A stretch of 64,000 bases of DNA, from positions 98,303,515-98,367,514 of the forward strand of contig OX424555.1 in assembly GCA_949152475.1 (NCBI GenBank), given 5' to 3'. Shown here piece after piece: positions 2,166 to 62,042 of the stretch. Within the stretch, counting starts at the first letter, position 1, and every line of letters begins with the position of its first letter. Position numbers and translations under genes: made by a program. The notes below the pieces were generated by a model. That model was not told the DNA's origin. It searched no databases and saw nothing but the letters and a program-made list of their open reading frames with translations. This stretch comes from Terebella lapidaria (taxonomy: Eukaryota > Annelida > Polychaeta > Terebellida > Terebellidae).

Positions 2166-2243
2166 TTTTATTTCTTTGATAATGGAAATGAAGCATAGTG
2201 GGTTGGAGGCAATAAAATTGGAAAATGAGCGGGTTCAATTTGT

Positions 2244-8314: not shown

Positions 8315-17782
<9,468 letters not shown>

Positions 17783-24900: not shown

Positions 24901-27029
24901 AATTTGTTCAGTAACTTTTTTTTCTTATTGATGAAAAACACTCCTCATATGTACCCCTGTGACATGTATAAATTTCGTTGCCCTTGAATTGCTTGAATTG
25001 GGCCATTTTGGGCCCAAACTCGGCCCAAATGTGACTTTCCCATGTTAAATTTTCCTATGCTTTATAATGGGACACATTAAGCCTAATATCTCACTTAATA
25101 TTGAAATTAGAGACTAGGAATGAATTGTGGACATATAGAAAATGATATATGCTGAATATTCTCGTGACCTTGAATTTGACTTATGACCTCATTTTCAAGG
25201 TTACAGGACAAAATGGCTAATATCTCGCTTATTATCGACTTTACAGCTTAGGAATCAATTGTGAACATATAGGAAATTATATATGCTGAATATTCTCGTG
25301 ACTTTGAATTTGACCTTCGACCTCATTTTCAAGGTCACATGACAAAATGGCTAATATCTCGCTTATTATCGACTTTACAGTTTAGGAATCAATTGTGAAC
25401 ATATAGGAAATGATATATGCTGAATATTTTCGTGACCTTGAATTTGACCTTTGACCTCATTTCCAAGGTCACAGGACAAAATTGCTAATATCTCGCTTAT
25501 TATCGACTTTACAGCTTAGGAATCAATTGTGAACATATAGGAAATGATAGATGCTGGATATTCTCGTGACCTTGAATTTGACCTTTGACCTCATTTTCAA
25601 GGTCACAGGACAAAATGGCCAATATCTTGCTTATTAGCGACTTTACAGCTTAGGAATCAATTGTGAACATATAGGAAACGATATATGCTGAAAATTCTCG
25701 TGACCTTGAGTTTGACCTTTGACCTCATTTTCAAGGTCACAGGACAAAATGGCCAATATCTTGCTTATTAGCGACTTTACAGCTTAGGAATCAATTGTGA
25801 ACATATAGGAAATGATAAATGCTGAAAATTCTCATGACCTTAAATTTGACCTTTGACCTCATTTTCAAGGTCACATGACAAAATGGCTAATATCTCGCTC
25901 ATTATCGACTTTACAGCTTAGGAATCAATTGTGAACATATAGGAAATGATGTATGCTGAATATTCTCGTGACCTTGAATTTGACCTTTGACCTCATTTCC
26001 AAGGTCACAGGACAAAATTGCTGATATCTCACTTTTTATCGACTTTACAGCTTAGGAATCAGTTGTGAACATATAGGAAATGATATATGCTGAATATTCT
26101 CGTGACCTTAAATTTGACCTTTGACCTCATTTTTAAGGTCACAGGACAAAATGGCCAATATCTTGCTTATTAGCGACTTTGCAGCTTAGGAATCAATTGT
26201 GAACATATAGGAAATGATATATGCTGAATATTCTGTTGACCTTGAATTTGACTTTTGACCTCATTTTCAAGGTCAACAGGACAAAATGGCTACCGGTAAT
26301 ATCTTGCTTATTGTCGACTTTACAGCTTAGGAATCAATTGTGAACATATAGGAAATGATATATTCTGAATATTTTAATGATATTGAATTTGACCTTTGAC
26401 CTAAATTTCAAGGTCAGTCATTTTATTTACGAAGTCAGATTACAAAATGGCTTATATCTCGCTTATTATCAAATTTACAGCTTAGGAGTCCATAGTGAAC
26501 ATATAGGAAATGATGTATGCTGAATAGTTTGGTGATCTAGAATTTAACCTTTGATCCCATTTTCAAGGTTAGAGATATGGCGATTTCAGTGGTCACCTTG
26601 AATTTGACCTTCAACTTTCTCGGCTTAACTCTGTATATTTCTCCGGTAACCTTTCTAGCCCATTGGGCTAATTTTTCGATTTATTAGCTACTGAAACTGA
26701 ATTTTATTTATTGCATGACGCGCCATACAGCTACCATTTTTCGAAGTGAGTTGCTATCATGATATTGTTGGCACACTTGCAGGTACATCAGCAGCAGGAC
26801 CCAGTCTGGTACAGTGTACGCAGTGTTGTTGTCATGGCCGAGAGAGGGACGATTGTTGCTAGGGGCGATCACAATCTCCGGGGACACCCGAGTCACATTG
26901 TTAGGGGTCTCCAGCCCGATCCAGTGGACTGCGACCGAGGCCGGGGTCAACATAAATCTCGCCGTGTTGTCTGGACCAGAGCTGCCGTGTCGTTGGGCCT
27001 GGGTCCTAAAGCTACAGCACGTGTTCTGA
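18919..27029 (+). CDS. FUCA: Alpha-L-fucosidase (GH29) with a long mucin-like N-terminal extension (fucosidase 1)
   Basis: It hydrolyses alpha-L-fucosides on glycans. Eight exons (18919-20456, 20605-20711, 21031-21161, 21482-21615, 21749-21846, 21936-22068, 22156-22326, 26783-27029) give 852 aa, against about 460 in usual animal enzymes. The GH29 domain starts near residue 419 ([19 protein letters not shown]) and keeps the nucleophile segment [21 protein letters not shown] and [10 protein letters not shown]. It ends with the usual beta-sandwich tail. Exon 1 alone adds about 385 residues rich in Ser, Thr, Pro, Lys and Gln with several N-x-S/T sites. At the very N-terminus a hydrophobic stretch (about 10-34) ends in TYAHA, so it may be a cleaved signal peptide or a type II anchor. 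The last intron (4.46 kb) consists largely of nested copies of element A. Exons 4 and 5 (134 and 98 bp) correspond to one 232-bp exon in the two paralogues. Confidence 0.9.
22407..26676 (+). mobile_element. Nested complex of element A copies in the last intron of fucosidase 1
   Basis: Three 5' ends with the AGGTTACCGGACC hairpin occur at 22407, 22496 and 22769. The second starts inside the CACATTTTT tract of the first, the third inside the T-run after CAGTAACTTTTTT of the second. The innermost copy runs to about 24395 with its own 3' hairpin, after which head sequence of an outer copy resumes. A long array of about a dozen 134-bp units follows (about 24830-26560) and the complex ends with TCCGGTAACC and TAGCCCATTGGGCTA at 26676. 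Head segments are partly repeated at 24396-24570 and 24841-24940, so the outer copies are rearranged. All lie in the same orientation as the gene. Confidence 0.65.
23916..24118. mobile_element. 203-bp MITE inserted in an element A unit
   Basis: It has 11-bp terminal inverted repeats CATAGTTCCGA / TCGGAACTATG, and the flanking AATT at 23912-23915 is repeated at 24119-24122. Removing it with one AATT restores the normal unit sequence GAATCAATTGTGGAC. Its superfamily is not assigned. Confidence 0.75.
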
Positions 27030-28896: not shown

Positions 28897-31040
28897 CTTT
28901 ATAGTTGTCCTACCTACACCTATAAAGTACATTATGATATGTCGTACCTACAACTATAAATACATTATAATCCTACCTACAACTATAAAGTGCATTATGA
29001 TATGTCGTACCTACAACTATAAAATACATCACGATATGTCCTACCTAATTATTATAATGTACTTCATAATTGTAGGTAGGACATATCATGATGTACTTTA
29101 TAATTGTAGGTAGGACATATAATGTGCTTTATAGATGTAGGTAGAACATATCATAATGTACTTTATAGTTGTAGGTAGGACATATCATAATGTACTTTAT
29201 AGTTGTAGGTAGGACTTATCATAATGTACTTTATAGTTGCAAGTAGGACATATCATAATGTACTTTACAATTGTAGGTAGGACATATAATGTGCTTTATA
29301 GATGTAGGTAGAACATATCATAATGTACTTTATAGTTGTAGGTAGGACATATCATAATGTACTTTATAGTTGCAAGTAGGACATATCATAATGTACTTTA
29401 TCACATGCTATGAATTTATCTTAAACTACAAACAGTAGGAACACACAGTGATTTCCGACAGTGTGATAACCTTTGCCGGAAACATCATGTTTGCACTATT
29501 TTTTTCTTCACATTTTGCTTCACATTTCACATATTCACATGATTTGTAGGTAGGACATATCATAATGTACTTTATAGTTGTAGGTAGGACATATCATAAT
29601 GTACTTTATAGTTGTAGATAGGACATATCATAATGTACTTTATAGTTGTAGGTAGGACATATCATAATGTACTTTATAGTTGTAGGTAGGACATATCATA
29701 ATGTACTTTATAGTTGTAGATAGGACATATCATAATGTACTTTATAGTTGTAGGTAGGACATATCATAATGTACTTTATAGTTGTAGGTAGGACATATCA
29801 TAATGTACTTTATAGTTGTAGGTAGGACATATCATAATGTACTTTATAGTTGTAGATAGGACATATCATAATGTACTTTATAGTTGTAGGTAGGACATAT
29901 CATAATGTACTTTATAGTTGTAGGTAGGACATATCATAATGTACTTTATAGATGTAGGTAGGACATATCATAATGTACTTTATAGTTGTAGGTAGGACAT
30001 ATCATAATGTACTTTATAGTTGTAGATAGGACATATCATAATGTACTTTATAGTTGTAGGTAGGACATATCATAATGTACTTTATAGTTGTAGATAGGAC
30101 ATATCATAATGTACTTTATAGATGTAGGTAGGACATATCATAATGTACTTTATAGATGTAGGTAGGACATATCATAATGTACTTTATAGTTGTAGGTAGG
30201 ACATATCATAATGTACTTTATAGTTGTAGATAGGACATATCATAATGTACTTTATAGTTGTAGGTAGGACATATCATAATGTACTTTATAGTTGTAGGTA
30301 GGACATATCATAATGTACTTTATAGATGTAGGTAGGACATATCATAATGTACTTTATAGTTGTAGGTAGGACATATCATAATGTACTTTATAGTTGTAGG
30401 TAGGACATATCATAATGTACTTTATAGTTGTAGATAGGACAAATCATACTGTACTCTATAGTTGCAAGTAGGACATATCATACTGTACTTTATAGTTGTA
30501 CGTAGGACATATCATAATGTACTTTATAGATGTAGGTAGGACATATCATAATGTACTTTATAGTTGCAAGTAGGACAAATCATACTGTACTTTATAGTTG
30601 CAAGTAGGACATATCATAATGTACTTTATAGTTGCAAGTAGGACATATCATAATGTACTTTATAGTTGCAAGTAGGACATATCATAATGTACTTTACAGT
30701 CATAAGTAGGACATATCATAATGTACTTTACAGTCATAAGTAGGACATATCATAATGTACTTTACAGTCATAAGTAGGACATATCATAATGTACTTTATA
30801 GATGCAAGTAGGACATATCATAATGTACTTTACAGTCATAAGTAGGACATATCATAATGTACTTTATAGATGCAAGTAGGACATCTCTTAATGTACTTTA
30901 GTCATGAGTAGGACATATCATAATGTACTTTACAATTGTAGGTAGGACATATCATAATGTACTCTATAGTTGTGGGTAAGACATATCATAATGTACTTTT
31001 TCTGGTTTGGGTAGGACATATCTTTACAAATATTATAGTT
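28897..31040. repeat. 34-bp minisatellite array with an inverted head
   Basis: About 60 tandem copies of a 34-bp unit (TTGTAGGTAGGACATATCAT followed by AATGTACTTTATAG) occupy about 29044-31040 in plus orientation. About four copies at 28897-29046 run in the opposite orientation, so the array begins with a palindromic junction near 29046. A non-repeat insert lies at about 29402-29543. Units are nearly identical in the middle and more varied at both edges, as expected for homogenisation of the array centre. Confidence 0.95.
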
Positions 31041-32476: not shown

Positions 32477-35400
32477 CTAAGCAAGGTTTTTTAGTTTGAA
32501 GACCCAGGCCCAGTCACACGGCATGGCAGTGACCGAGATCAAAGGAATCTGGATCCGTATGCCGCTGCTTCCTGTCGCAGTCCAGTGGAACGGGTGAGGG
32601 TAGCCCAGCATCGACACTGTGGTCGTCATCGTCGTGGTTACAGCCCCCAGGGTCAGGGAGTCACCTACTGGCCAGTCCAGTGCGATAGCGTAGACGGCCG
32701 GGTCACTGGGATCTCGTGACGCTGTGTACCTAACAATCGCCACATATCAATAATGAAATACACGTACATCTCATATGTGAAAAGTCAGAGAATCAATGAA
32801 TTGATTTTATTGAAGCACAAACAATAGAAACTAACCAGACTCTGGGGGTCACAGTATCATTCTGATGTTGCCACGGTTTGGATCCATAGATCGCCTCGCC
32901 ATTGACTTTGAGCCAGGATCCCATCTGCCGCAGTCGCTCCTCATACACTGCCACAATACGTCCGTCGTGAGTCGGAGCAATGTTCATCAGAAGGTTACCG
33001 CCACAGCTAAGGTTTTAACAGTAATCACACATTTGAATTGAAACCAGCCAATCAAAAGGATTAACATCCACAAGGTACCACTTGGCACACAACCCTCACC
33101 TAACAGTCCCCGCCAGTATCTCCACCAATCCCTTGATGTCGAAGTAGTCAGAGAGCCGAGCATTGCGCCTGTATCCCCAGGAACCCTTGTCAATGGTCAT
33201 ACAGTTCTCCCACTTGTGTGGCTGAAGCTTCCCTGTAAAATACATCATGGCTTGCTAGGTAAAAATCGAACCAGTTCAATGGCATAACTGAATGCAGAAA
33301 GGGTTATTTAAATATGAAAAATATTTTTCCATTTTTTTAGTGAGCTTTATCCAGAGATTCCCCAACATGCCAGACGTACCTGCTATATTGGGTTCCAAAA
33401 AATGAATAATTAACTCTATTATCAATAAAACTAATAAAGATTATTTGTGAGGGACATCACTGACCAGGGTTGTAGCGGTCACTGCATGTGTAGAAGCTGC
33501 CATGGTGACACATGTCGCCTGCTCCCCAGCGGTCATTGACTACCACGGTCTCCTTGACTGGACTGTCATTGAAGAGCCAGGCCAGGAAGTTTTTACTGTC
33601 CCAGTATGTGTCCTTGGCATTCCAATCTCCATCAGACCAAACTACCTCCGGCTTGTAGGCATTGACGATCTCGTACAGCTCTGGCATAGTTTTACTCTGT
33701 GCATTGAGAAAACAATGGATTCTTAGAACTGCGTATTGGTATCATAATCTTCAGCAATAACATGAACTTATATTCAATTCGAGATTTTCAGGTGTTCTAC
33801 CTTCACAAAATACTGGGTCTTGAATCCATTTTTCTGGTCTTCCAAGTAGAGTGGATTAAACCACTCAAATAAAGAATGGTAGATGCCAAATCGCAGCGTA
33901 GAATTAGCTCTGATTGCTAGAGCCAAGTCACCTGTATCACTAAACATTCTATAATGGCTGCAAGGTTATTCGGAGGAGCATGAATTGATCATTGTCTATA
34001 CTCTCGTGAAAGTACTTTAAATATTTATCACCTAATACAGATACATGTATACTAAAATTACGCGAACATAGCATCAAGGGTGCTGTAGCTTACCAGCAGA
34101 CTTAGATCAAAAGTGCCATTGAGCTATAATACTGAAGGTAGTCTGAGGTCAAGTTCAGTGTCACCAACAGATCCACTAGATTTGATTCCCTAATCCCTAT
34201 ATGCTTATAATACTGATACAGCCATAAGATGAATAAAATCTACCTCTTATCATTTCGGCAAATAAACGGCCGTCAAATCTGCAAAAAGCGATTGAATGAA
34301 AAATAAAACAGGTCAGGGTCAGCCAATGTTATGTTTTAGTAAAGTTCTAGAAAAATTCATCAAGCCGAAATCACCTGACGAACACCAGACGGGTGGATGG
34401 ACGATGGATGAAAAACCACGAAAATAGTTCATTGGCCGGTAAGCTAAAAATGAACTTCACACGCAACATGCATGGGTATTTAACTTAACAAACTACAAAC
34501 CTAGAAGATCTCGTTTTGGACCAACATCCATTGAGTTCCAGTTGAAGCTAACTTTAGATGGGTAAGTTGTGAAACCTTCATGATGCTTACTGCTGAATAC
34601 GACATACCTGAAAGAACATCACGTTACTACATAATGAATGATATCCTGATATCAATATATTTCCATTATTGTTATCAGATCATCTTCAACTAACAATACA
34701 TTCACATTGATTGATGGTCCAATACACATATTATGTATGACCCAGGTCATGATCATTAATCGAAAACTGTTTTTAGGAGAATGGAAAAAATTGTTGACAA
34801 AAAATAGGCTAAGCACAAGGTAATCGAACCTGGCTCCAGACGCTTTGAGAATGTCAACCCAATGGTTTGGATCATAAAACTCGGCGGTGAACATCGGACC
34901 AAAATCAGCATACGTGAAATCAGGCCGGTAGTTTTGGGTCATGAAATCAACATAGGCCTGCTGTTTGGTTGGACCCTGCCAGTACCACCAGAACCACTCG
35001 GAGCCGAAGCTGGGGACCGAGTACAGGCCCCAGTTGATGAAGATTCCGAACTTCGCCTCGTCGTACCAGGAGGCAGTGATTGCCAAAGACGTCGGACCAC
35101 GACCCAAGTCCGGTAAAAAGAGGGCTGGTCCGGAAAAAAATACCAGCTTGTCTGCCCAACAGTCCGATGGGTTTTGCCCCATGAATAACGATCTAACAAT
35201 TTGATCGCAATCGGCAAATTACCCATGTGCTTCTCGAATTGAGAGCCATCAGAGACTGACAAAACACACAACCTCACCCCCCCCCCCCACATCCACTGCA
35301 TCCCCCCCCCCCCCCCACCATCCTTCCCCTAACACTGCCTTTGATCATGTTGATTGCTGGTAGAATCTCACCAGATTGTTTGGAGAAGGGTGGCACGTCC

Positions 35401-38605: not shown

Positions 38606-41600
38606 TCAGGCGAGGTTTTGTAGTTTGAAAACCCAGGCCCAGTCACACGGCATGGCAGTGACCGAGATCAAAGGAATCTGGATCCGTATGCCGCTGCTTC
38701 CTGTCGCAGTCCAGTGGAACGGGTGAGGGTAGCCCAGCATCGACACTGTGGTTGTCATCGTCGTGGTTACAGCCCCCAGGGTCAGGGAGTCACCTGCTGG
38801 CCAGTCCAGTGCGATAGCGTAGACGGCCGGGTCACTGGGATCTCGTGACGCTGTGTACCTGTCAATTGATAAAGAGCAGCCTAATCATGCTTCACATAAT
38901 GATCCAAAATGTATTCTAATGAATGGCGTTGATGAGATGGGGTATGTCTACACAGACCAAACACCAGGAGTGATTGTGTCGTTCTGATGTTTCCATGGTT
39001 TTGAGCCATAGATCGCCTCCCCATTGACTCTGAGCCAGGATCCCATCTGACGCAGTCGCTCCTCAAAAATTGGCACAATTCGTCCATCATGAGTTGGTCC
39101 AACATTCATCAGCAAGTTACCACCACAACTGAAGTAGGAATAGAGTCACATAAAATGACGCAAAATGACATCAATCTTGTTAAAGATCTGAGTAATTCAT
39201 CACATTGATTTTACACAAACTTACCTGACTGTTTCTGCCAGTGTTTGAATCAGTTCCTCTATAGCCAGATAATCTGACAGTTGAGCATTGCGTCTGTATC
39301 CCCAGGATCCTTTGTCAATTGTCATACAGTTCTCCCACTTATGCTTTATAAGTTTACCTACAATAAAAAAATTTGCATGACATGAGTCTTTATGGTTTTG
39401 CGTCTTACAAGCAAGCAATGCTGATTTGATAGTTTCATAGCTTGTATCTTTCTGGTGCATTTCTTGCATCTCTGGTTAGAATGTACACCATCAGTAGTTT
39501 TAATCAGTACAAGTACAGTGGATCCTGTGTTAAAGACCACCTGGTTTGAGAGACCACCCTGTGTTTTAAGACCGCTACACTTGGTCCCAAATGGCCTTTT
39601 ATCATCAGAATGAACCTGTCATGAGAGACCACCTGTCATGAGAGACCACCTTTTGGGGTCCCTTGGGTGGTCTTAAAACACAGGATCCACTGTAGCTGGC
39701 TATATACTTCTTTAAACATCATACATATTTGTGCTACTAGTATATGTTAAACAACCAGGATAGGAGATGATAATTTTATATACCTGGGTTGTATCTGTCA
39801 TTACAGGTGTAGTAGCTGCCATGGTGACAAGCGTCTCCTGCCCCCCAGCGGTCATTGGTTACCACGGTATCCCTGACAGGGCTGTCATTGAAGAGCCAGG
39901 CCAGAAAGTGTGTGCTGTTCCAGTATGTGTCCTGCACCTCCCAGTCCCCATCAGACCAGACAACCTCAGGTTTGTATTTGGTCACAATCTCATAGAGTTC
40001 TGGCATGGTCTTACTCTGTCAAAATGTGCAACAAATATTTCAACATAAGCCTAATGAGAAAATTAGCCGAAAGGCACAACATGTGTCCAAAAGGGAACAT
40101 TCTTTTCTATATGTTCACAATTGATTCCTAAGATGTAAAGACAATAATGAGCAAGATATTAGCCATTCTGTGATCTGACCTTGAAAATAAGGTCAAAGGT
40201 TAACTTCAAAGTAATGAGAATATTTGCCATATATCATTTCCTATATGTCCCCAATTGACTCCTAGACTCTAGTCTCAATATTAAGTGAGATACATGTATT
40301 TGGAAAATTGCGTCCCATTATAAAGCATCTATAGGATTTAACATGGAAAAGTCCCATTTGGGCCGAGTTTTGGCTCAAAATGGCCCACTTCGAGTGATTC
40401 AAGGGAAACGAAACTTATACAAGTCACAGAGGTACATATGAGATGTCTTATGCATCAATAAGAAAAAAAGAATTACTGAACAGGTTTTCAGAAAAAGCCG
40501 TCAAAGTCCAAAATTGGCTGTTTTTCGTCAAAACTGGCAGCCATTCTGAAAGAAATTGTGAATATCAAAAACCTAAAAATACCTCCTTCTCGAAATATTT
40601 TTGTGCAAAATTTTGAAATATTCCATCTTAATCTTTAAAGATAAAAATGTAGACGGAAGACAACGGACGATGGACACGACGCCATGGCAAAAGGTTATCG
40701 GACCAAAGGTCTGGCAACCTAGAAATATTTTCTGATGCTATCATATAAAAAGCATCAGAGAATGAAGTATCTTTATTAAACATGATAAACATTTACTCTG
40801 TCAACATGGACAACAAATGTTTCAACATAAGAATTGAAAATATTTCTGATGATAAAAGCCGAAGTGAAGAATATTTTAAAATAATTATAATCATTACAAA
40901 AATAACACTTACTGCCACAAAATACTGAGTCTGAAATTTGTTCTGCTTATCCAACAAGTAGAGAGGATGGAACCACTCAAAGAGAGAATGATAAAGTCCA
41001 AATCGAATGTCAGTCTTATTGCGAACAGCTGCTGCCAAATCGCCTGGATGGAAAAAATGTCATTGCAATTTGGGCATACAAACATCGTATAATAAGCATA
41101 CAAAAAATATACTTGATTTTATTTGATTTATAATTTTGAGGTACTGAGTTGTACATAACATACAAATTCAAGAATCATACCGACAAGATCACGTTTTGGG
41201 CCAACATCCACTGAATTCCAGTTAAAACTGACTTTTGATGGCCAATTGGTGAATCCTTCATGATGCTTGCTAGTTAAAACTATATACCTGGAATGTATTA
41301 ATGAAACAAAACGGGGTTGAAATTCAACACAGCTGTAACACTAGTATCAGCCAAAATTGTTGATACTAAATAACACAATATTTGTTACCAGTACTAATGA
41401 AATGTACCTTGCACCAGAGGCTTTGAAGATATCGGCCCATTCTTCAGGATTGAAGAACTCTGCTGTGAACATTGGAGCAAAGTCTGCATATGTGAAATCT
41501 GGTCGATAGTTCTTTGTCATGAAATCAATATAATCTTGAGACTTTCTCCCTTTCCAGTTCCACCAAAACCATTCAGAGCCGAAACTGGGAACCGAAAACA

Positions 41601-41766
41601 CTCCCCAGTGGATGAAAATGCCAAATTTGGCCTCATCATACCAAGAGGGTAGGGGTCTGGAATCCAATGAAGACCAGTTCGGTTCGTATCTGCCATCAAC
41701 AATACAGGCAAGTGACATGCATATCAGAGATAGACATAGAAGCCATTCACGCCCAATGTGTGCCAT
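38606..41766 (-). CDS. FUCA: Alpha-L-fucosidase (GH29), intact (fucosidase 3)
   Basis: It hydrolyses alpha-L-fucose from glycoconjugates and is probably lysosomal or secreted. Seven exons (41408-41766, 41181-41287, 40913-41043, 39784-40015, 39225-39357, 38958-39128, 38606-38858) sum to 1386 nt and 461 aa, the standard family length. A signal peptide ([20 protein letters not shown]) precedes [20 protein letters not shown]. The nucleophile segment is VVWSDGDW, with [15 protein letters not shown] and [11 protein letters not shown] further on. I chose the ATG at 41766 because the signal peptide follows at once. Exon lengths 107, 131, 232, 133, 171 and 253 are the same as in fucosidase 2, which shows tandem duplication. 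Introns carry a mariner-type MITE (39516-39692) and a reversed element A (40058-40722). The gene is divergent from SUZ12. Confidence 0.93.
39516..39692. mobile_element. Tc1/mariner-type MITE (177 bp)
   Basis: Terminal inverted repeats CAGTGGATCCTGTGTTAAAG and CTTAAAACACAGGATCCACT(G) are flanked by TA dinucleotides (39514-39515, 39693-39694), as for Tc1/mariner elements. It lies in an intron of fucosidase 3 and has no coding capacity. Confidence 0.75.
40058..40722 (-). mobile_element. Element A, copy in fucosidase-3 intron, reversed and shortened
   Basis: On the plus strand it runs from the inverted 3' end (AAAATTAGCCGAAAGGC) through one to two degenerate 134-bp units to the inverted 5' hairpin (GGTTATCGGACCAAAGGTCT, then GGCAACCT). 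It has a much shorter array than the other copies. Confidence 0.6.
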
Positions 41767-42220
41767 TTCTGGGAGTTGTCGGCAGTGCTCAAAATGGTGT
41801 AGAAAATGCAAACTTTTGCAAAAGGAGGACTTTTGACGATTTTCATCACTTTTATTTCACAGATCAATAAACAAAGCTGTCACATGATCAGCTCCCACGT
41901 GACCAATGGGATGCTGACAAGCCGTACGTTCAATACTTACTTTAGAATTATTTTAAAATGTCGGTATGATTATGAAAAAGGCCAATTTCCTACAAGAACA
42001 TATGATTCAACTGAAATTATCGCAAAATTGTGAAAAAATGACTTGTAGTGGTCCACTACATTGGATAATTATTCCTAAATTAATAGCCCCACCCCCACTA
42101 ATTTCGACATGAAATCGCCCAAGCCATTTCCGGTTCAGCCTCGTTTGAACTGATGCATTGTGGACTTGATTCGCGCGGATTCTCCTCATTTTGCTGAAAA
42201 ATAACAAATTGTTATCAAAA
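41767..42220. promoter_or_regulatory. Shared divergent promoter region of fucosidase 3 and SUZ12
   Basis: The two start codons are 454 bp apart on opposite strands. The interval contains CCCACGTGACCAATGGG at 41894-41910, which joins a CACGTG E-box (41896-41901) to a CCAAT box. The related CACATG lies 10 bp before it. GGTCACGTGGG resembles the CLEAR element that TFEB-type factors bind upstream of lysosomal genes, which would suit a fucosidase. Function is inferred from position and motif only. Confidence 0.45.
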
Positions 42221-50838
<8,618 letters not shown>

Positions 50839-52034: not shown

Positions 52035-52617
52035 AATCTACGTATATGTCCTAATAGACGCACCATCCCTAATAAACGTGCCCCCCCCCCCCCCTCTTTT
52101 TCTGACAAAAATAAACAAATACAATATTTGACCACAAAGATCGAAAGTCGATCATTGCAAAGGCTTCGATTCGGCACATATATCATAATGCATACAAATG
52201 TCGATCGTTACAAAGGCTTCGAATCCCTGTCACCCACACACACTTCTCCCGCCGCCCATCCAACTTTTGCTGTTTTAGGTTTGCTATGCGTTTTGCATAG
52301 TTAAACACTTCGTTTGAAAGAAAAATCATGAGATATATTTTTGCGTTCCTCCATGATGGCACTGTAACCAAATCATGTGATTTCCGGCATGCGCAGCGTT
52401 AAATATAGCTACCGGTATCATAATGTACCAGTGCATCCATACCAGATGGCAGGACCCCAACGGGATGCGATTTTGCAGTGCATGTTTGCACTATGATGTC
52501 AGTAGATGATTATGGTCACAAGGCCGACGTATGAATTTCAGGTATAGCGTAACATTATAGACGCACCCCCTTAACTTTTGCAACGCGCCCGGCGCGTCTT
52601 TTAGGACATATACGGTA
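52035..52617. mobile_element. Possible MITE with about 20-bp inverted ends
   Basis: The left end GTATATGTCCTAATAGACGC is matched by GCGTCTTTTAGGACATATAC at the right end in inverse orientation, about 580 bp apart. There is no coding sequence. The target duplication was not resolved. Confidence 0.45.
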
Positions 52618-53331
52618 TCAACATTTGCCACCAAACCATTGTGTCCCTGACTGCAAAAGATAACAACAACTTTATATGGGTTTATTGGTAAAATTCTAGA
52701 AGTCAAAAAGAAAAAGCACCATTCCACAACAAAGACACAGCCTAATAGAGAGTTCATTACAGTCAACAAATATGTTTTTTTTTTCCCGTTGACTAACATT
52801 AGGTTATTTCAACATTAACAAACAAAACAAAATTGACAACATAACGTACATGACCGTTGTCGTTGGAGTACACACTATATGACGCATACTTTATATCACA
52901 GATCAACATTTTTGTGGTGTTGATGGCTTGTTCGAACATTTGAATTTGTGACCATGTCAATCACTTCATTCATGAAACATTTTGTCATTTTTGTGCCCTG
53001 ATATATAGCAATGCATTAAATGGAAGAGAAACATTTAGTAAACAAACTACCGGTATTACTAATCTAATCCATACCCACATTGTTGGGACCTACAAGTACA
53101 GACAATCACTTCCAGCTCTGCTCTGGTAACAAGCTTGTGCTTCAGGTACAAATATTAAATTTTACAAGATGTAGAAGCATACTATCACCTTAAAGCAGAT
53201 TTGGTACATTTAACAGCAAATATCTAAAGAGCATTAGTTCATGAGCAGACCTTTCACCATAAAAGCAGTACATGTATATAGCAAGAAATATATTTAAAAA
53301 ACTCTCCATCCCAAGTGCATGGAGCTTGCGC

Positions 53332-56058
53332 TCACTCTGCCTCCTTGTCCCTGTTACTAACACTTCGGTTACCACGGACGTAGTAACGCAGAGGTTTTTT
53401 GGCCCAGTCCCCGGCGCTGTCGATTCCGACCCTTGTGCTGACAACAACATCCCCCACGTTGACCTTGAACCCGTCCTGGAGCCAGAGGTCAGAGGTCATG
53501 TTGATGTCCTGTTTGTTGAACTCTGACTTGGTGATGCCCAGAGCTTGAGTCAGCTTGGACGGACCATTACCGAGATCTTTTTCTGGGAGTCCAGAACCTT
53601 TGTCTGGCCGCTTGACGCCTCGACCCTGACGCATTGACTCCAGTCCGTGAGTGGCATCAATGGCGCGAATCAACACAGCGGCACCCTCACCTGGGAACAA
53701 GGGGATTCTTCATGTAGAAATATATTAAGTCATTTTGGAGTTTCAACGTACAACTCTAGCAAAAGGAATAGAATAGATTAACAAATCTTTGTCCTACCTT
53801 GGCTAGATATGTTGATACAAGTCATCACTCCGTAGATGTTGTAGACATAAACAGTCCCTGGATCCATGAACATGGCCTCGTTTTTTCCCGTCTTTTTGCC
53901 ACCGAATGAATGGGAAGCTTTGTCATCACCGCCAAGGTAAGCTTCTGTCTCCACAATGTCTCCTGCTACCAGCTCACCAGTCTCCAGCCTCCGCACCAAC
54001 TTCTTGCCGAGCAGCGCCCGTGCCAGGTCCTCACATGGGCGCTGGTAGAACGCTCTGGGCAGCCGCAGTTTCGAATCAGTATTTATTTTGGACTGCGGAG
54101 CCTGTTTCTGACTGGTAGATGACTCTCCCACTGCTTTAGGTGCTTTGGTGTCTCGCTGACTCGAGGAGGTAGTTGCTTTGGTTTGTTGTGTGTCTGAAGA
54201 TGATATCGGGCTAGCTGCAGTAGTAGAGTTAGCCATGACTTTGACTCCAGAGGTCTCGGTGTTGGATTCCTCTGCCTCCTTGTCCCTGTTGCTAACACTC
54301 CGGTTACCACGGACGTAGTAACGCAGAGGTTTTTTGGCCCAGTCCCCGGCACTGTCGATTCCGACCCTTGTGCTGATAACAACATCCCCCACGTTGACCT
54401 TGAACCCGTCCTGGAGCCAGAGGTCAGAGGTCGTGTTGATGTCCTGTTTGTTGAACTCTGACTTGGTGATGCCCAGAGCTTGAGTCAGCTTGGACGGACC
54501 ATTACCGAGATCTTTTTCCGGGAGTCCAGAACCTTTGTCTGGCCGCTTAACGCCTCGACCCTGACGCATTGACTCCAGTCCGTGAGTGGCATCAATGGCG
54601 CGAATCAACACAGCGGCACCCTCACCTGGGAACAAGGGGATTCTTTATGTAGGAATATATTGTTAAGTCATTTTGGAGTTTCAATGTACAACTCTAGCAA
54701 AAGGAATAGAATAGACTAACAAATCTTTGTCCTACCTTGGCTAGATATGTTGATACAAGTCATCACTCCGTAGATGTTGTAGACATAAACAGTCCCTGGA
54801 TCCATGAACATGGCCTCGTTTTTTCCTGTCTTTTTGCCACCGAATGAATGGGAAGCTTTGTCATCACCGCCAAGGTAAGCTTCTGTCTCCACAATGTCTC
54901 CTGCTACCAGCTCACCAGTCTCCAGCCTCCGCACCAACTTCTTGCCGAGCAGCGCCCGTGCCAGGTCCTCACATGGGTACTGGTAGAAAGCTCTGGGCAG
55001 CCGCAGTTTCGAATCAGTATTTATTTTGGACTGCGGAGCCTGTTTCTGACTGGTAGATGACTCTCCCACTGCTTTAGGTGCTTTGGTGTCTCGCTGACTC
55101 GAGGAGGTAGTTGCTTTGGTTTGTTGTGTGTCTGAAGATGATATCGGGCTAGCTGCAGTAGTAGAGTTGGCCATGCCTTTGACTCCAGAGGTCTCGGTGT
55201 TGGATTCCTCTGCCTCCTTGTCCCTGTTGCTAACACTCCGGTTACCACGGACGTAGTAACGCAGAGGTTTTTTGGCCCAGTCCCCGGCACTGTCGATTCC
55301 GACCCTTGTGCTGACAACAACATCCCCCACGTTGACCTTGAACCCGTCCTGGAGCCAGAGGTCAGAGGTCGTGTTGATGTCCTGTTTGTTGAACTCTGAC
55401 TTGGTGATGCCCAGAGCTTGAGTCAGCTTGGACGGACCATTACCGAGATTTTTTTCCGGGAGTCCAGAACCTTTGTCTGGCCGCTTAACGCCTCGACCCT
55501 GACGCATTGACTCCAGTCCGTGAGTGGCGTCAATGGCGCGAATCAACACAGCGGCACCCTCACCTGGGAACAAGGGGATTCTTTATGTAGGAATATATTG
55601 TTAAGTCATTTTGGAGTTTCAATGTACAACTCTAGCAAAAGGAATAGAATAGATTAACAAATCTTTGTCCTACCTTGGCTAGATATGTTGATACAAGTCA
55701 TCACTCCGTAGATGTTGTAGACATAAACAGTCCCTGGATCCATGAACATGGCCTCGTTTTTTCCCGTCTTTTTGCCACCGAAGGAATGGGAAGCTTTGTC
55801 ATCACCGCCAAGGTACGCTTCTGTCTCCACAATGTCTCCTGCTACTAGCTCACCAGTGTCCAGCCTCCGCACCAACTTCTTGCCGAGCAGCGCCCGTGCC
55901 AGGTCCTCACATGGGCGCTGGTAGAACGCTGTTTCTAGCCGCTTCCCGCTGTCCAGTTTAACATTCACTGAGACTGAGTCTTCCTTGGAATATTTGGCTG
56001 CACTTGGTCCATTGCTGGAGTTGGCGGCTTCCGTTGTGGCTTTCCTCTTCCAAGGCAT
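53332..56058 (-). CDS. MPG: Three-domain DNA-3-methyladenine glycosylase (MPG/AAG tandem fusion)
   Basis: AAG removes alkylated and deaminated purines in base-excision repair in the nucleus. Four exons (55674-56058, 54736-55563, 53798-54625, 53332-53690) sum to 2400 nt and 799 aa, against about 300 for usual MPG. The family domain is split by an intron after NISSQ. The two middle exons each encode second half + Ser/Thr-rich linker + first half, so splicing yields three complete domains. By family alignment the catalytic Glu (VETEAYLG) is at 80, 356 and 632; the DNA-intercalating Tyr (NIYG) at 117, 393 and 669; and the pocket Arg (LIRAI) at 137, 413 and 689. The active-site His (SHSFGG) is also kept. 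Both middle exons are 828 bp with phase-1 ends, so any number of units stays in frame. The 938-bp units differ by only about five residues. A recent duplication is likely; an assembly artefact is possible. Residues 1-40 are basic/Ser-rich. A possible acceptor at 56084 suggests an upstream 5' exon. Confidence 0.88.
53798..55673 (-). repeat. MPG: Two 938-bp tandem units (intron + exon) inside the MPG gene
   Basis: Each unit is a 110-bp intron followed by an 828-bp exon, 54736-55673 and 53798-54735. They are almost identical at the base level, introns included. This points to recent duplication or ongoing homogenisation. Confidence 0.9.
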
Positions 56059-56463
56059 GCTGGGACTCTGCTCACTGATGTAGTCCTGAAAGATACAGTA
56101 ATTGATCTCTTGAAACTACTGTCCATTACACAAATCAACCATCCATGTCCAGTGCCACATGGATAATATCATATACCGGTAATAGTAGTGGTGTGGTATA
56201 GGTATATACATGATATACGAGTCATATACTATGGAATTACCATTCTGTAATTGTTCTGTAACGATTTAATTGTGTTCCCAAGGCACATACGGGTATATCA
56301 TATGTAGTTAACAGGTTAATTCTGAACATATTGTGGTGATTTTGCCAGAAGCAGGAGATTCGGCAGGCGATTCTTTGTAAACACTACTCTTGTTTTGGCC
56401 GCTTCGTATTCGGAGCACGTGCGCTGCATAGCAACGTCCTCAAATCCTCTCACTCCATTGTAC
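56059..56463. other. MPG upstream region
   Basis: It presumably contains the MPG promoter or a first exon. A CACGTG motif lies near 56417. Nothing further is recognised before the LTR. Confidence 0.4.
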
Positions 56464-58214
56464 TGTACAATGGTCTTACGTCATCCCTCGTGTCTCGTGC
56501 TTCAGGGGTTATAAAAATTCTGAAGCCGTCTTGTTCAGTGGAGCTGGCAAGACGAGAGGACGACGGAGGACTCGGCCATGAGCTCTACGTCTGTACTCAC
56601 CGGCTAAGGCCCGCAAGGGCCCTGGGGACAATTCTCATAGGGGGCCCAGGAGGGGGACCGTGATGATTCGGGACTCGCCCTGTGATCAGCGGTCTCTCGC
56701 CCTGGGTTGGTGCGACACAGGCTCTGGCAGACCGTCGGGCTGTACAAGGTTCTGTCCCCCGAGCGGAGCGTCGGCGAGCCGGCCACAGTTAACACCACGG
56801 TGATGATCCAGTATCTGAGTGGTGTCCGTATGTCTGGGCTTGCTGGGCGGGCTGCTACCTGGTTAACATTCTAAAGTAAATACTGCGCCCGCAGTGACCC
56901 TCGGTGAGCGGACTATCGGCGAGGATCCGGGATAGTGGATGTGTGTCCGCCATGACTCATGGTGAACGGCTTATCCGCAAGGATCCGGGATAGTGAACGG
57001 CATCAAACTTTACTGTGGTGCCATGACCAGGATCAGTCTGACAACATTCCATCGTAGCCTAACGTCGCAGTGTCTTTGCTCCCTCGTCCCTGGGGACCGT
57101 CTGCCTCCTCCAGGACACTCAGGGAAGTGAAATATGAGCGAAAATGAGAGAGTAGCAGACCATACTCGGTCGCACGACGGCCGTGAGCCGCCCAGCGGTG
57201 GCTCTGGCGCTGCGGAAGGACAGCCGGATGAACTCCTGGACCAGACCCAGTCCGCGGAGTCATCTTTGGCATCTTTGACTTTGTCTGTGGGGCTGCAAAA
57301 GCAGTTGCTATCCGGGCCAGACCTTGATGTTCTAGGTGCGATGAGCTCTACTCCGCACCTGGCCCTGCCCGGACGACCTTTGCGGCCGTTACTTCTCCGT
57401 GGGACGTCTCCGGACATCCAGATTCGAGTCCTGATCACTATGGTTAGTTCCGGACAGGCAGACTGACTGTTCCGTCTACCTCCGCCGGCGGGGTTGACCT
57501 CTATGAGGACCCCCGCTCCGGATGTCGGCCGGATGGTTGGGGATGTGGTAGACCAGTTCACTGACTCCCTCAAGGTCGCCTCACACTGGGCAACCAGATC
57601 ATCGGAACCATTCGCCCTCTCCGAGATCACAGCACCTTTCGGGGCCGCTGCCGGAGAGAGAGCGGAGGCTGATGAGTACAAGCACTGTCAGCCGTCCGCA
57701 CCGAGCGTGGATTCGACGATGCCATACAGTCCGGGGATGACTGGGCCGGTGGCCCCTCCCCTAGCTCACCCAAGTCTGCCGGCGCCGGTGACCCATGCCA
57801 TGGGACACCGCGACTTGGCCGCACCACGCTGGTGACCGCTTCCGCCGTTCCTATGGCCTGCTCGAACGGTGCTCTGGGAGCTAGCTGGCAGCCGGTGGCC
57901 TTGGCCCCAAGCTATGCTGGCTACCCTGCCTCGCCTGGATCCTACCTGTTAGGATCGGCGGGGGCTCTGCCTGCACTAAGTCAGGGTGGGATGTCTGCGG
58001 GTGTATACCGGCGGCAGCTGCTAGTTTCCCCTCGCCCACCCCAATTGCGTACGGGTCCGCATCTGTGGACCCTACCATGGCAGGGGGTAATGCTATGGCG
58101 CTGGGTATACACCGCTGACCCCGGAGCCATATCCCCCAACCGGGAGCGCTCGTCACGGGACCGGAGGCCAGACCAGTCATCCTGGCGGAAAAAGTTCAAC
58201 AAGAACTAGACGTC

Positions 58215-60735
58215 AAGGCCTAAAGATGCCTTGGAGGCATTTCGGTGTGATGAATAATTTATAATACTAGATATCGACGAAAATGAAAAATGTCGACAAA
58301 TTTCGGGTCAAGGTCAAAGTTCATCCATAATACCCGCTAGACATGTTTGTCTAGGGCGACGAGTCCGAAAATACCATCCGTTTCGCTCTACGACGCACCG
58401 TTTCCGAGATATCGACGAAAACAAAAACTGCCGACTCGGCAAAAAAATTTCGGGTCAAGGTCAAAGTTAATCCATAATACCCCTTAGACATGTTTGTCTA
58501 GGGCGACGAGTCCGAAAGTAACGTCCGTTTCGCTCTACGACGCACCGTTTCCGAGATATCGACGAAAACGAAAAATGCCGACTCGGCAAAAAAATTTCGG
58601 GTCAAGGTCAAAGTTCATCAATAATTCCCCTTAGACATGTTTGTCTAGTGCGACGAGTCCGAAAATAACGTCCGTTTCGCTCTACGACGCACCGTTTCCG
58701 AGATATCGACGAAAACGAAAAATGCCGACTCGGCAAAAAAATTTCGGGTCAAGGTCAAAGTTCATCAATAATTCCCCTTAGACATGTTTGTCTAGTGCGA
58801 CGAGTCCGAAAATAACGTCCGTTTCGCTGTACGACGCACCGTTTCCGAGATATCGACGAAAACGAAAAATGCCGACTCGGCAAAAAAATTTCGGGTCAAG
58901 GTCAAAGTTCATCCATAATACCCCTTAGACATGTTTGTCTAGTGCGACGAGTCCGAAAATAACGTCCGTTTCGCTCTACGACGCACCGTTTCCGAGATAC
59001 GACGAAAACGAAAAATGCCGACTCGGCAAAAAAATTTCGGGTCAAGGTCAAAGTTCATCAATAATACCCCTCAGACATGTTTGTCTAGTGCGACGAGTCC
59101 GAAAATAACGTCCGTTTCGCTCTACGACGCACCGTTTCCGAGATATCGACGAAAAAGAAAAATGCCGACTCGGCAAAAAAATTTCGGGTCAAGGTCAAAG
59201 TTCATCCATAATACCCCTTAGACATGTTTGTCTAGTCCGACGAGTCCGAAAATAACGTCCGTTTCGCTCTACGACGCACCGTTTCCGAGATAACGACGAA
59301 AACGAATGCAAAAAAATTTCGGGTCAAGGTCAAAGTTCATCAATAATACCCCTTAGACATGTTTGTATAGTGCGACGAGTCCGAAAATAACGTCCGTTTC
59401 GCTCTACGACGCACCGTTTCCGAGATATCGACGAAAAAGAAAAATGCCGACTCGGCAAAAAAATTTCGGGTCAAGGTCAAAGTTCATCCATAATTCCCCG
59501 TAGACATGTTTGTCTAGTGCGACGAGTCCGAAAATAACGTCCGTTTCGCTCTACGACGCACCATCTCCGAGATATCGACGAAAACGAAAAATGCCGACTC
59601 GGCAAAAAAATTTCGGGTCAAGGTCAAAGTTCATCAATCATTCCCCGTAGACATGTTTGTCTAGTGCGACGAGTCCGAAAATAACGTCCGTTTCGCTCTA
59701 CGACGCACCGTTTCCGAGATATCGACGAAAACGAAAAATGCCGACTCGGCAAAAAAATTTCGGGTCAAGGTCAAAGTTCATCCATAATACCCCTTAGACA
59801 TGTTTGTCTAGTGCGACGAGTCCGAAAATAACGTCCGTTTCGCTCTACGACGCACCGTTTCCGAGATATCGACGAAAACGAAAAATGCCGACTCGGCAAA
59901 AAAATTTCGGGTCAAGGTCAAAGTTCATCCATAATACCCCTTAGACATGTTTGTCCAGGGCGACGAGTCCGAAAATAACGTCCGTTTCGCTCTACGACGC
60001 ACCGTTTCCGAGATATGCAGGATGAATCAAGGATGACTCAGCAAAAAATTATTTCGACCTCTAGGTCAAAGGTCGTTTGAGGTATCGATCCCAAAATCAA
60101 TAGGGTTCTTCCCTGGTGATATATAAACCTCCGTGCAAAATTCTGCAACTATTGCCTGAATATTTTTTGAGTTATCGTCCGGAAACCAAGTTCCTCGATT
60201 TCATCCTCACGGACCTCACGGACCTCGGAGCCGGATCAAAAAAAAAAGTACACCCTAGAGATGTTTGTCTAGGGCGACGAGTCCGAAAATAACGTCCGTT
60301 TCGCTCTACGACGCACGGTTTCCGAGATATGCAGGAAGCCTCAAGGATGAATCAGCAAAAAATTATTTTGACCTCTAGGTCAAAGGTCGTTTGACGGATC
60401 GATCCCAAAATCAATAGGGTTCTTCCCTGGTGGCATATGAACCTCCATGCAGAGTTCTGCAACTATTGCATAAATATTTTTCCAGTTATCGTCCGGAAAC
60501 CAAGTCTTAAAATTAGCCTTGATTTCATCCTCACGGACCTCACGGACCTCCGATCCGGCTCAAAAAGAATAGGGTTCTTCCTCATATCATTTCTGACTTG
60601 CGGTGAAAATTTGACAAGGATCCGTCAAGGCAATCTAAAGTTATCGTCCGGAAACCAAAAGTGGCGCAAGAAGAAAAAAAAAAAAAAAAAAAAAATTCTG
60701 CTAAAACCATAAAGGCATTTCTGCCGAAATGCCTT
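58215..60735 (+). mobile_element. Satellite-bearing element B, inserted in the LTR fossil
   Basis: The left end has a hairpin formed by AAGATGCCT and AGGCATTTC. The right end has a perfect 10-bp hairpin AAGGCATTTC / GAAATGCCTT. Between them lie the 147-bp satellite (58260-60020), then about 1.7 copies of a longer unit with GGTCAAAGGTC and CATCCTCACGGACCTC, and a poly-A tract near 60668-60690. Overall architecture (end hairpins around a tandem core) parallels element A though the sequences differ. It may be another Helentron-associated family. Confidence 0.5.
58260..60020 (+). repeat. 147-bp satellite, about 12 copies
   Basis: TTTCGGGTCAAGG starts at 58301, 58448, 58595, 58742 and 58889, exactly 147 bp apart. 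The next steps are 146 and 147 bp. Units are near-identical and contain TCAAGGTCA, AGGTCAAAGTTCA and CCGTTTCGCTCTACGACGCA. Confidence 0.95.
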
Positions 60736-62042
60736 AATAACACCGATCTGGAGGATCATTTACTCCGGGTAAGGTGAACGGCAGTGTATGAAGGATGGAC
60801 TCAGGAGGAAGCTGGGTACCCCGACAACAAACAGACGGATGTACGAGGAGTTTAAGGCTCAACTCCACCTGGTGACAGAATCCGTGACCGATTTGCGTTT
60901 AACCTGTGTGTACTCCGCCGGAGAGTCTATCCGGATATGGAAGCGGGTAGCTTCGAGCCGATGCTGATCGACCAATTTATCGAGGGACAGGCATACCACA
61001 TAGCGTACGCCTTGCCGTCTCACGAGAAACGGTCGATGGAAGAGGCGACCAATTTATCGAGGGACAGCCGTACCACATAGCGTACGCCTTGCCGTCTCAC
61101 GAGAAACGGTCGATGGAGGAGGCGATTAACAGGTGGCTCTGTTGCCCTTCCCCCACCCACCAAGAACCCGTCATGGTGCTCAACCCCCAGTGGGTTGGTG
61201 CACTCGCATCACCCCCAGTGACGCCTGTGCAAGCGGCTCTGGACGAGTATGATTATGAAGAATATAATCTTGGAACCGCGTAAATGATTGTGCACTGTGC
61301 CGAGATCGAATCTCCGGGACCCGCAGATTGCTGCGCGTTCACCTTCGGACCCAACTCATGCCGTCCTTGCTATTTCTGCGGAAAACAGGGACACATTTGG
61401 TTTTCAGTGTCCGGAGTTGCTGGAGTGCTTGCGGGCAAGCGGCTATAAGGGGAGCCTCTCCGAGCCACACCGGAGGAACTGTAACAATGGTCTTACGTCA
61501 TCCCTCGTGTCTCGGCTTCAGGGGTTATAAATATTCTGAAGCCGTGTTGTTCAGTGGAGTTGTCTCAGTGCTGGCAAGGCGAGAGGACGATGGAAGGCTC
61601 GGTCATGAGCTCTACGTCCCTACTCACCGACTAAGGCCTGCGAGGGCCCTGGGAACGATTCCCATAGGGGGCCCAGGAGGGGGACCGTGATAATTCGGGG
61701 CTCGTCCCTGTGATCACCGGTCTCTCGCCCTGGGATGGTGCGACACAGGCTCAGGCAGACCGTCGAGCTGTCCAGGGTTCTATCCCTGCGGCAGACCGCT
61801 GGCGAGCCGGCCACAGTTAACACTACGGTGATGATCCAGTGTCTGAATGGTGTCCGAATGTCTGGGCTTGCTGGGTGGGCCGCTACCTGGTTAACGTTCT
61901 TAAGTAAATACTGCGCCCGCAGTGACCCTCGGTGAGCGGACTATCCCCGAGAATCCGAGATAGCGGGCGTGCGTCCGCCGTGACCCATGGTGAGCGGCTT
62001 ATCCGCAAGGATGCGGGACAGCGGACGGCATCAAACTTTACA

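Follow-up and report, generated by a model that had tools for sequence, protein, structure and literature searches.

The window analysed here, a stretch of 64,000 nucleotides from contig OX424555.1 of Terebella lapidaria, carries on its minus strand a putative four-exon gene for the DNA repair enzyme MPG (alkyladenine DNA glycosylase, AAG). When the exons are joined, they give an open frame of 799 amino acids without a stop codon, which begins with an ATG at 56058 and ends with the last base of the stop codon at 53332, exactly the limits set by a first-pass annotation. Exons were located on the minus strand in the region 52500-57000, using the repeated splice donor (AGCCAAG/GTAGGAC, with the slash at the exon boundary) and acceptor (CTTGTTCCCAG/GTGAGGG), which resulted in the following model:

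55674-56058, minus strand: exon 1, 385 bp; ATG, 43-aa N-terminal extension and N-half of MPG domain 1, up to a split glycine codon (phase 1)
55564-55673, minus strand: intron 1, 110 bp, GT-AG
54736-55563, minus strand: exon 2, 828 bp, phase 1-1; C-half of domain 1, 72-aa linker and N-half of domain 2
54626-54735, minus strand: intron 2, 110 bp, GT-AG; 1 difference from intron 1
53798-54625, minus strand: exon 3, 828 bp, phase 1-1; C-half of domain 2, linker and N-half of domain 3; 9 differences from exon 2 in 828 bp
53691-53797, minus strand: intron 3, 107 bp, GT-AG; 3-bp deletion relative to introns 1 and 2
53332-53690, minus strand: exon 4, 359 bp; C-half of domain 3 and stop codon

The boundaries CAAG/GTAGGACAAAG...TTCCCAG/GTGAGG are common to all three introns, each of which interrupts a glycine codon in phase 1. 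Intron 1 is in phase 1 because it is preceded by 385 coding bases, and exons 2 and 3 are of class 1-1 because each is 828 bp long. Both are internal, equal in phase, nearly identical and accompanied by nearly identical introns, as in a tandemly duplicated symmetric exon, and both join the halves of successive domains, as the first-pass annotation had described. Where an intron is retained, the frame closes a few residues further on, after 134, 410 or 686 residues. Skipping of the middle exons keeps it open, yielding 523 aa without exon 2, 523 aa without exon 3 and 247 aa without both; the further claim that the number of copies can vary without loss of frame is upheld as well. A candidate splice acceptor (TATCTTTCAG/GACTAC) is found 27 bases upstream of the ATG, with the frame open in between; an additional 5' exon is therefore possible, and the start at 56058 is to be regarded as putative.

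The gene is arranged tail to tail with a SUZ12 gene, represented by a frame for the Zn domain (47640-48026) and one for the VEFS-box (50395-50838). An element of about 560 bp, possibly a transposable element, is present in two copies that are 88% identical (56462-57013 and 61478-62041), one of which starts about 400 bp upstream of the MPG ATG. Satellite-like arrays occupy 58298-60016 (147-bp unit, 11.8 copies, 95% match), 29050-31022 (34-bp unit, 58 copies) and 25083-26416 (134-bp unit, 9.9 copies), and arrays with the 134-bp period also occur near 6.4, 23.2 and 63.3 kb. Three frames match alpha-L-fucosidase (PF01120; 18904-20472 on the plus strand, 34652-35218 and 41347-41856 on the minus strand), one of them with a long N-terminal region of low complexity, and perhaps represent a local gene expansion. 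Frames for a KR domain, an FAS pseudo-KR domain and a ketoacyl synthase (9089-9766, 11418-12554 and 16825-17274, minus strand) probably belong to one multi-exon gene of the fatty-acid-synthase-like or animal polyketide-synthase type. A perfect (AT)30 run at 2247-2307 is located just upstream of a frame for a secretin-family 7TM receptor (51-2234, minus strand). RNA genes were found in the window neither by ARAGORN (bacterial code) nor at Rfam gathering scores.

MPG domains and their occurrence elsewhere

Pfam family PF02245 matched the joined protein in three stretches, with 593 bits in all (E-value 5e-180, cut-off 27) and the best stretch covering profile positions 2-180 of 181; three other Pfam names in the same scan were below their own cut-offs. 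The exonic halves, searched singly, each matched the corresponding half of the profile. The domains comprise residues 44-247, 320-523 and 596-799, each preceded by a tail or linker of low complexity. Domain 1 shares about 52% identity with human AAG, 97% with domain 2 and 98% with domain 3.

In an alignment of the three domains with human AAG (A1), with the human residue numbering taken from a separate alignment, the equivalents of E125, Y127, H136, Y159, Y162, N169 and R182 are invariant in all four sequences. We take E125, Y127, H136, Y159, N169 and R182 to be the catalytic and base-pocket residues of human AAG, and Y162 to be the intercalating one. Their equivalents are residues 80, 82, 91, 114, 117, 124 and 137 in domain 1, and are found 276 and 552 residues further on in the next domains. 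The first-pass annotation, which had listed a single intercalating tyrosine among the key residues said to be kept in each head, is thus corroborated with the tyrosines at Y159 and Y162 both retained, and its count of three complete domains and active sites in one 799-aa protein agrees with the open frame and the three PF02245 stretches. It was likewise correct in placing an exon boundary inside the domain, as each of the three is cut at the phase-1 glycine codon. In domain 1 this is codon 129, between the equivalents of N169 and R182, so that no single exon contains a complete active site in linear order. For MPG, a single catalytic domain in each chain is usual without being required for membership in the family; the chain described here has three.

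For comparison, two groups of prokaryote genomes were searched, each centred on a genome (G001, G002) that had been picked for holding MPG. MPG was present in 97 of 299 genomes from the phylum of G001 and in 109 of 199 from that of G002, and no frame with two complete MPG domains was found in any of these 206 MPG-bearing genomes among the 498. All seven whole genomes chosen had a single MPG match. Two match rows were obtained in six genomes, where they came from separate contigs (G017, G124, G250), from adjoining pieces of one gene (G179, G399) or from two halves (G102). Several prokaryotic MPG rows are situated in long open frames, 551 to 781 aa in length, that have one MPG match. A search of prokaryotic contigs confirmed at least 578 MPG stretches, the best 80 of which were used, and on viral contigs 3 of 38 pattern matches were confirmed as MPG. 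The 83 loci fetched with flanks of up to 2 kb contained one MPG-bearing frame each and no second complete domain; where two match rows were returned (5 of the 83), they were partial stretches summing to one domain. The premise that MPG is known as a single-domain enzyme is thus borne out for prokaryotes only. Among the matches listed for open-licence PMC full text, a multi-domain MPG was mentioned in no title or abstract start, and the words 'tandem', 'duplicat' and 'two catalytic' are absent from the available portion of the main text of a 2022 review on the noncatalytic parts of DNA glycosylases (PMC9266487).

In G102 (G102:C1:1395470-1397749, minus strand), the MPG gene consists of two halves (profile positions 1-82 and 81-181) on one strand, about 1.7 kb apart, possibly as the result of an insertion. 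The break lies near the profile position at which introns split the Terebella lapidaria gene.

The peptide encoded by exon 2 (275 aa) was also modelled by itself with AlphaFold2. The input alignment (A2) had 40 rows, consisting of exons 2 and 3 and both halves of 19 loci drawn from the 42 of the 83 loci in which the split point was found; the final residues of its prokaryotic C-half rows are misplaced. A structure alignment (A3, 38 rows) was discarded, as its C-half rows were misaligned. The best of five models has a mean pLDDT of 77.2 and a pTM of 0.73, with the other four ranging from 75.5 to 65.6 in mean pLDDT. In the best model, 133 of 275 residues reach a pLDDT of 90 or more and 56 are under 50, 55 of the latter belonging to the linker stretch 123-177; both halves are thus modelled confidently and the linker with low confidence, as disorder would give. 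In a Foldseek search with this model, the only matches at E <= 0.001 were six chains of human AAG, aligned over 89 columns at 0.8-0.9 Å with a TM-score of 0.32 by query length, which corresponds to about one half; an aligner that follows chain order would detect just one half of a circular permutant. Tentatively, the 828-bp exon may be a permuted module (C-half, linker, N-half) that is a complete glycosylase in itself, with the number of heads set by exon copy number and splicing, such that one-, two- and three-headed enzymes would arise and copy number may vary within the species; we hold this to be doubtful. Within the 799-aa chain, ordinary pairing of the N- and C-halves of a domain that have no linker between them is a simpler expectation than permuted folding.

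Repeat units, linker and history of the array

A BLASTN self-comparison delimited the repeat array and its linkers as follows:

53335-55930, minus strand: repeat array, about 2.8 units of 938/935 bp
54989-55208, minus strand: linker copy 1, 220 bp; ATG at 55174 with G at -3 and +4; AATAAA at 55025
54051-54270, minus strand: linker copy 2, 3 differences from copy 1 in 220 bp; ATG at 54236 with G at -3 and +4; AATAAA at 54087

Direct repeats in three copies at a spacing of 935-938 bp were found independently by a repeat scan. The array extends from approximately the first residues of MPG domain 1 almost to the stop codon. When copies 1-2, 1-3 and 2-3 are compared, the N-halves differ at 7, 4 and 3 of 253 positions, the C-halves at 3, 8 and 7 of 355, and the introns at 1 of 110, 3 of 107 and 4 of 107, in addition to the 3-bp gap in intron 3. 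Taken overall, the smallest distance is that between exons 2 and 3 (9 of 828), with a margin of one base in the N-half (3 versus 4 of 253), and the two appear to have arisen by recent duplication of a single intron-exon unit.

The copies are separated by 19 substitutions in the coding parts that they share; 12 of these are silent and 7 amino-acid-changing (two in one codon), where permutation predicted 12.8 changing ones (P = 0.005). When the domains are taken by themselves, 6 of 16 substitutions change an amino acid, against 10.7 expected (P = 0.012). The starting state at each position was set to the majority base, which makes the direction of change arbitrary for the linker with its two copies. 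This excess of silent substitutions beyond chance argues that the copies evolved as coding sequence. It can also stem from allelic variation that arose while the gene was still single-copy: the differences lie within the allelic range of very polymorphic animals, such as the Chinese lancelet with a reported SNP rate of 4.39% (PMC4284660), and consequently do not prove selection after duplication.

The origin of the linker was sought in several places. With BLASTN (word size 7, E <= 0.1), the 220-bp sequence matched nothing in the window but its own second copy, which lends no support to a source in the flanking DNA or elsewhere in the window. Derivation from the N-terminal region of exon 1 found no support at the protein level (score 30, shuffle mean 27.9, P = 0.31) or at the DNA level (P = 0.97), and it speaks against a first fusion by plain recent tandem duplication of the present gene that the linker resembles neither the upstream part of exon 1 nor the 3' flank. 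As an ATG with G at -3 and +4 is located near its beginning, we infer that the linker may derive from the N-terminal part of a further MPG copy. Shuffled versions of the linker stay open in 4.4% of shuffles, and its open frame could be accidental. The AATAAA motif, which occurs 39 times on the minus strand of the window and beyond the stop codon is nearest at 52686, 646 bp away, possibly acts in the linker as an early polyadenylation signal or is there by chance.

Since the 72-aa linker has no match elsewhere in the window, a two-headed fusion of the order N1-C, linker, N-C3 probably preceded the three-headed form. In a second step, the unit of intron and exon 2 would have been duplicated in frame to give three heads, which its 1-1 phase makes possible. 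This two-step history rests on few differences, and gene conversion among the units could yield the same pattern. The first-pass annotation had attributed the whole protein to tandem duplication of an intron-exon unit; that account agrees with the step from two to three heads, for which exons 2 and 3 differ at 9 of 828 positions, and leaves the first fusion unexplained, given the unmatched linker.

Reading of the locus and related systems

Judged by its sequence, the three-headed MPG is best read as an unusual variant of a known enzyme. We consider it probable that this animal gene encodes one chain of 799 aa, with an estimated mass of roughly 87 kDa, and that its three complete, nearly identical heads work as tethered, largely independent enzymes. 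Each head would flip out and remove alkylated or deaminated purines as human AAG does, a function suggested by the conserved active-site residues in this well-studied family. With one head bound, two more would be held near the same DNA; tighter and longer non-specific binding and a higher local concentration would be expected, and no new chemistry. Exon skipping or a change in copy number could provide one-, two- or three-headed forms without loss of frame. A gain in DNA retention or search from the extra heads is plausible; the disordered tail of human MPG is described as important for processive search and product release (PMC9266487). The same review reports intersegment transfer by MPG to be independent of the tail (PMC9266487), so that a gain from additional tethered parts is not assured.

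The number of units is open to the objection that it was produced by assembly or by haplotypes, the true gene being two-headed with one linker exon, or two alleles of a very polymorphic animal having been stacked. The units are indeed nearly identical (exons 2 and 3 differ at 9 of 828 positions, introns 1 and 2 at 1 of 110); moreover, lancelet alleles with 4.39% SNPs differ more than these units do, and tandem misassemblies are named among the errors corrected in the Chinese lancelet pipeline (PMC4284660). However, the window is free of any N, intron 3 has a 3-bp deletion of its own, and the linker, unmatched outside its own two copies, is in frame between the halves in both. As stacking of unit alleles cannot create this linker, a minimum of two heads is difficult to dispute, and we rate an artefact of copy number as quite unlikely. 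It is also unlikely, if somewhat easier to conceive, that the locus mainly gives a single-headed MPG, whether by joining exon 1 directly to exon 4, by early polyadenylation or by initiation at the linker ATGs, with the long frame as a by-product. Exons 1 and 4 do combine in frame to a normal MPG of 247 aa, both linker ATGs (55174, 54236) have G at -3 and +4, and each linker contains an AATAAA; yet the splice-site sequences are the same in all three introns, so that nothing in them favours skipping of both middle exons, not one stop codon occurs between the heads, and the low share of amino-acid changes extends to the middle exons.

Processing of the long chain into three separate glycosylases by cleavage in the linkers, so that the array raises dosage only, is suggested by the length of the linkers, modelled as disordered, and has a precedent in another enzyme class in polyserase-1, a chain from which three protease domains can be freed by processing (PMC1435904). 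Such processing is unusual for intracellular repair enzymes, however, and we regard it as improbable here. Just as small a probability is given to a decaying or unexpressed duplicate, with a functional single-domain MPG elsewhere in the genome. In amphioxus, MPG is reported to be closely positioned to RHBDF1 (PMC2975663), which is absent from the Pfam matches of the 11 non-MPG frames scanned here; these are a minority of the frames in the window, though, and the neighbour argument is weak. Against decay, 2.7 kb with three units contain no stop codon, frameshift or lost splice site, and the active-site residues are kept in all three heads. The tethered three-headed glycosylase thus remains the reading we prefer.

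AAG/MPG is a standard model for how repair enzymes search for rare DNA damage and has been studied as a single domain. If the three-headed reading is true, three nearly identical heads on flexible tethers would make it possible to test directly if multivalency accelerates or hinders the search for damage, with in-frame exon skipping as the sole difference to the one- and two-headed controls, and the gene would be a clear case of out-of-register symmetric exons building enzyme arrays. Its significance would be smaller if only the short form is made, and would rise with a long transcript.

Among known systems, human AAG/MPG (PDB 1bnk, 1ewn, 1f4r, 3qi5, 7xfh) has the PF02245 domain in common with the heads described here, 52% identity to domain 1 and the seven active-site residues. 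It is described as one domain behind one presumably disordered N-terminal tail (PMC9266487), whereas the present chain has three domains, each with its tail or linker. Three catalytic domains of one family in a single chain are likewise reported for the human serine proteases polyserase-1 and polyserase-2 (PMC1435904). These belong to another enzyme class, their domains differ from each other, and those of polyserase-1 can be released by processing, according to the same account (PMC1435904), whereas the MPG heads are 97-98% identical. Symmetric, duplicable exons of the same kind underlie the shuffling and expansion of 1-1 phase domains in animals, described as strongest in lancelets (PMC4284660). 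Unlike the 1-1 domain exons described there (PMC4284660), the MPG exon is out of register with its domain, combining the C-half of one with the N-half of the next, so that whole domains are made only by the array.
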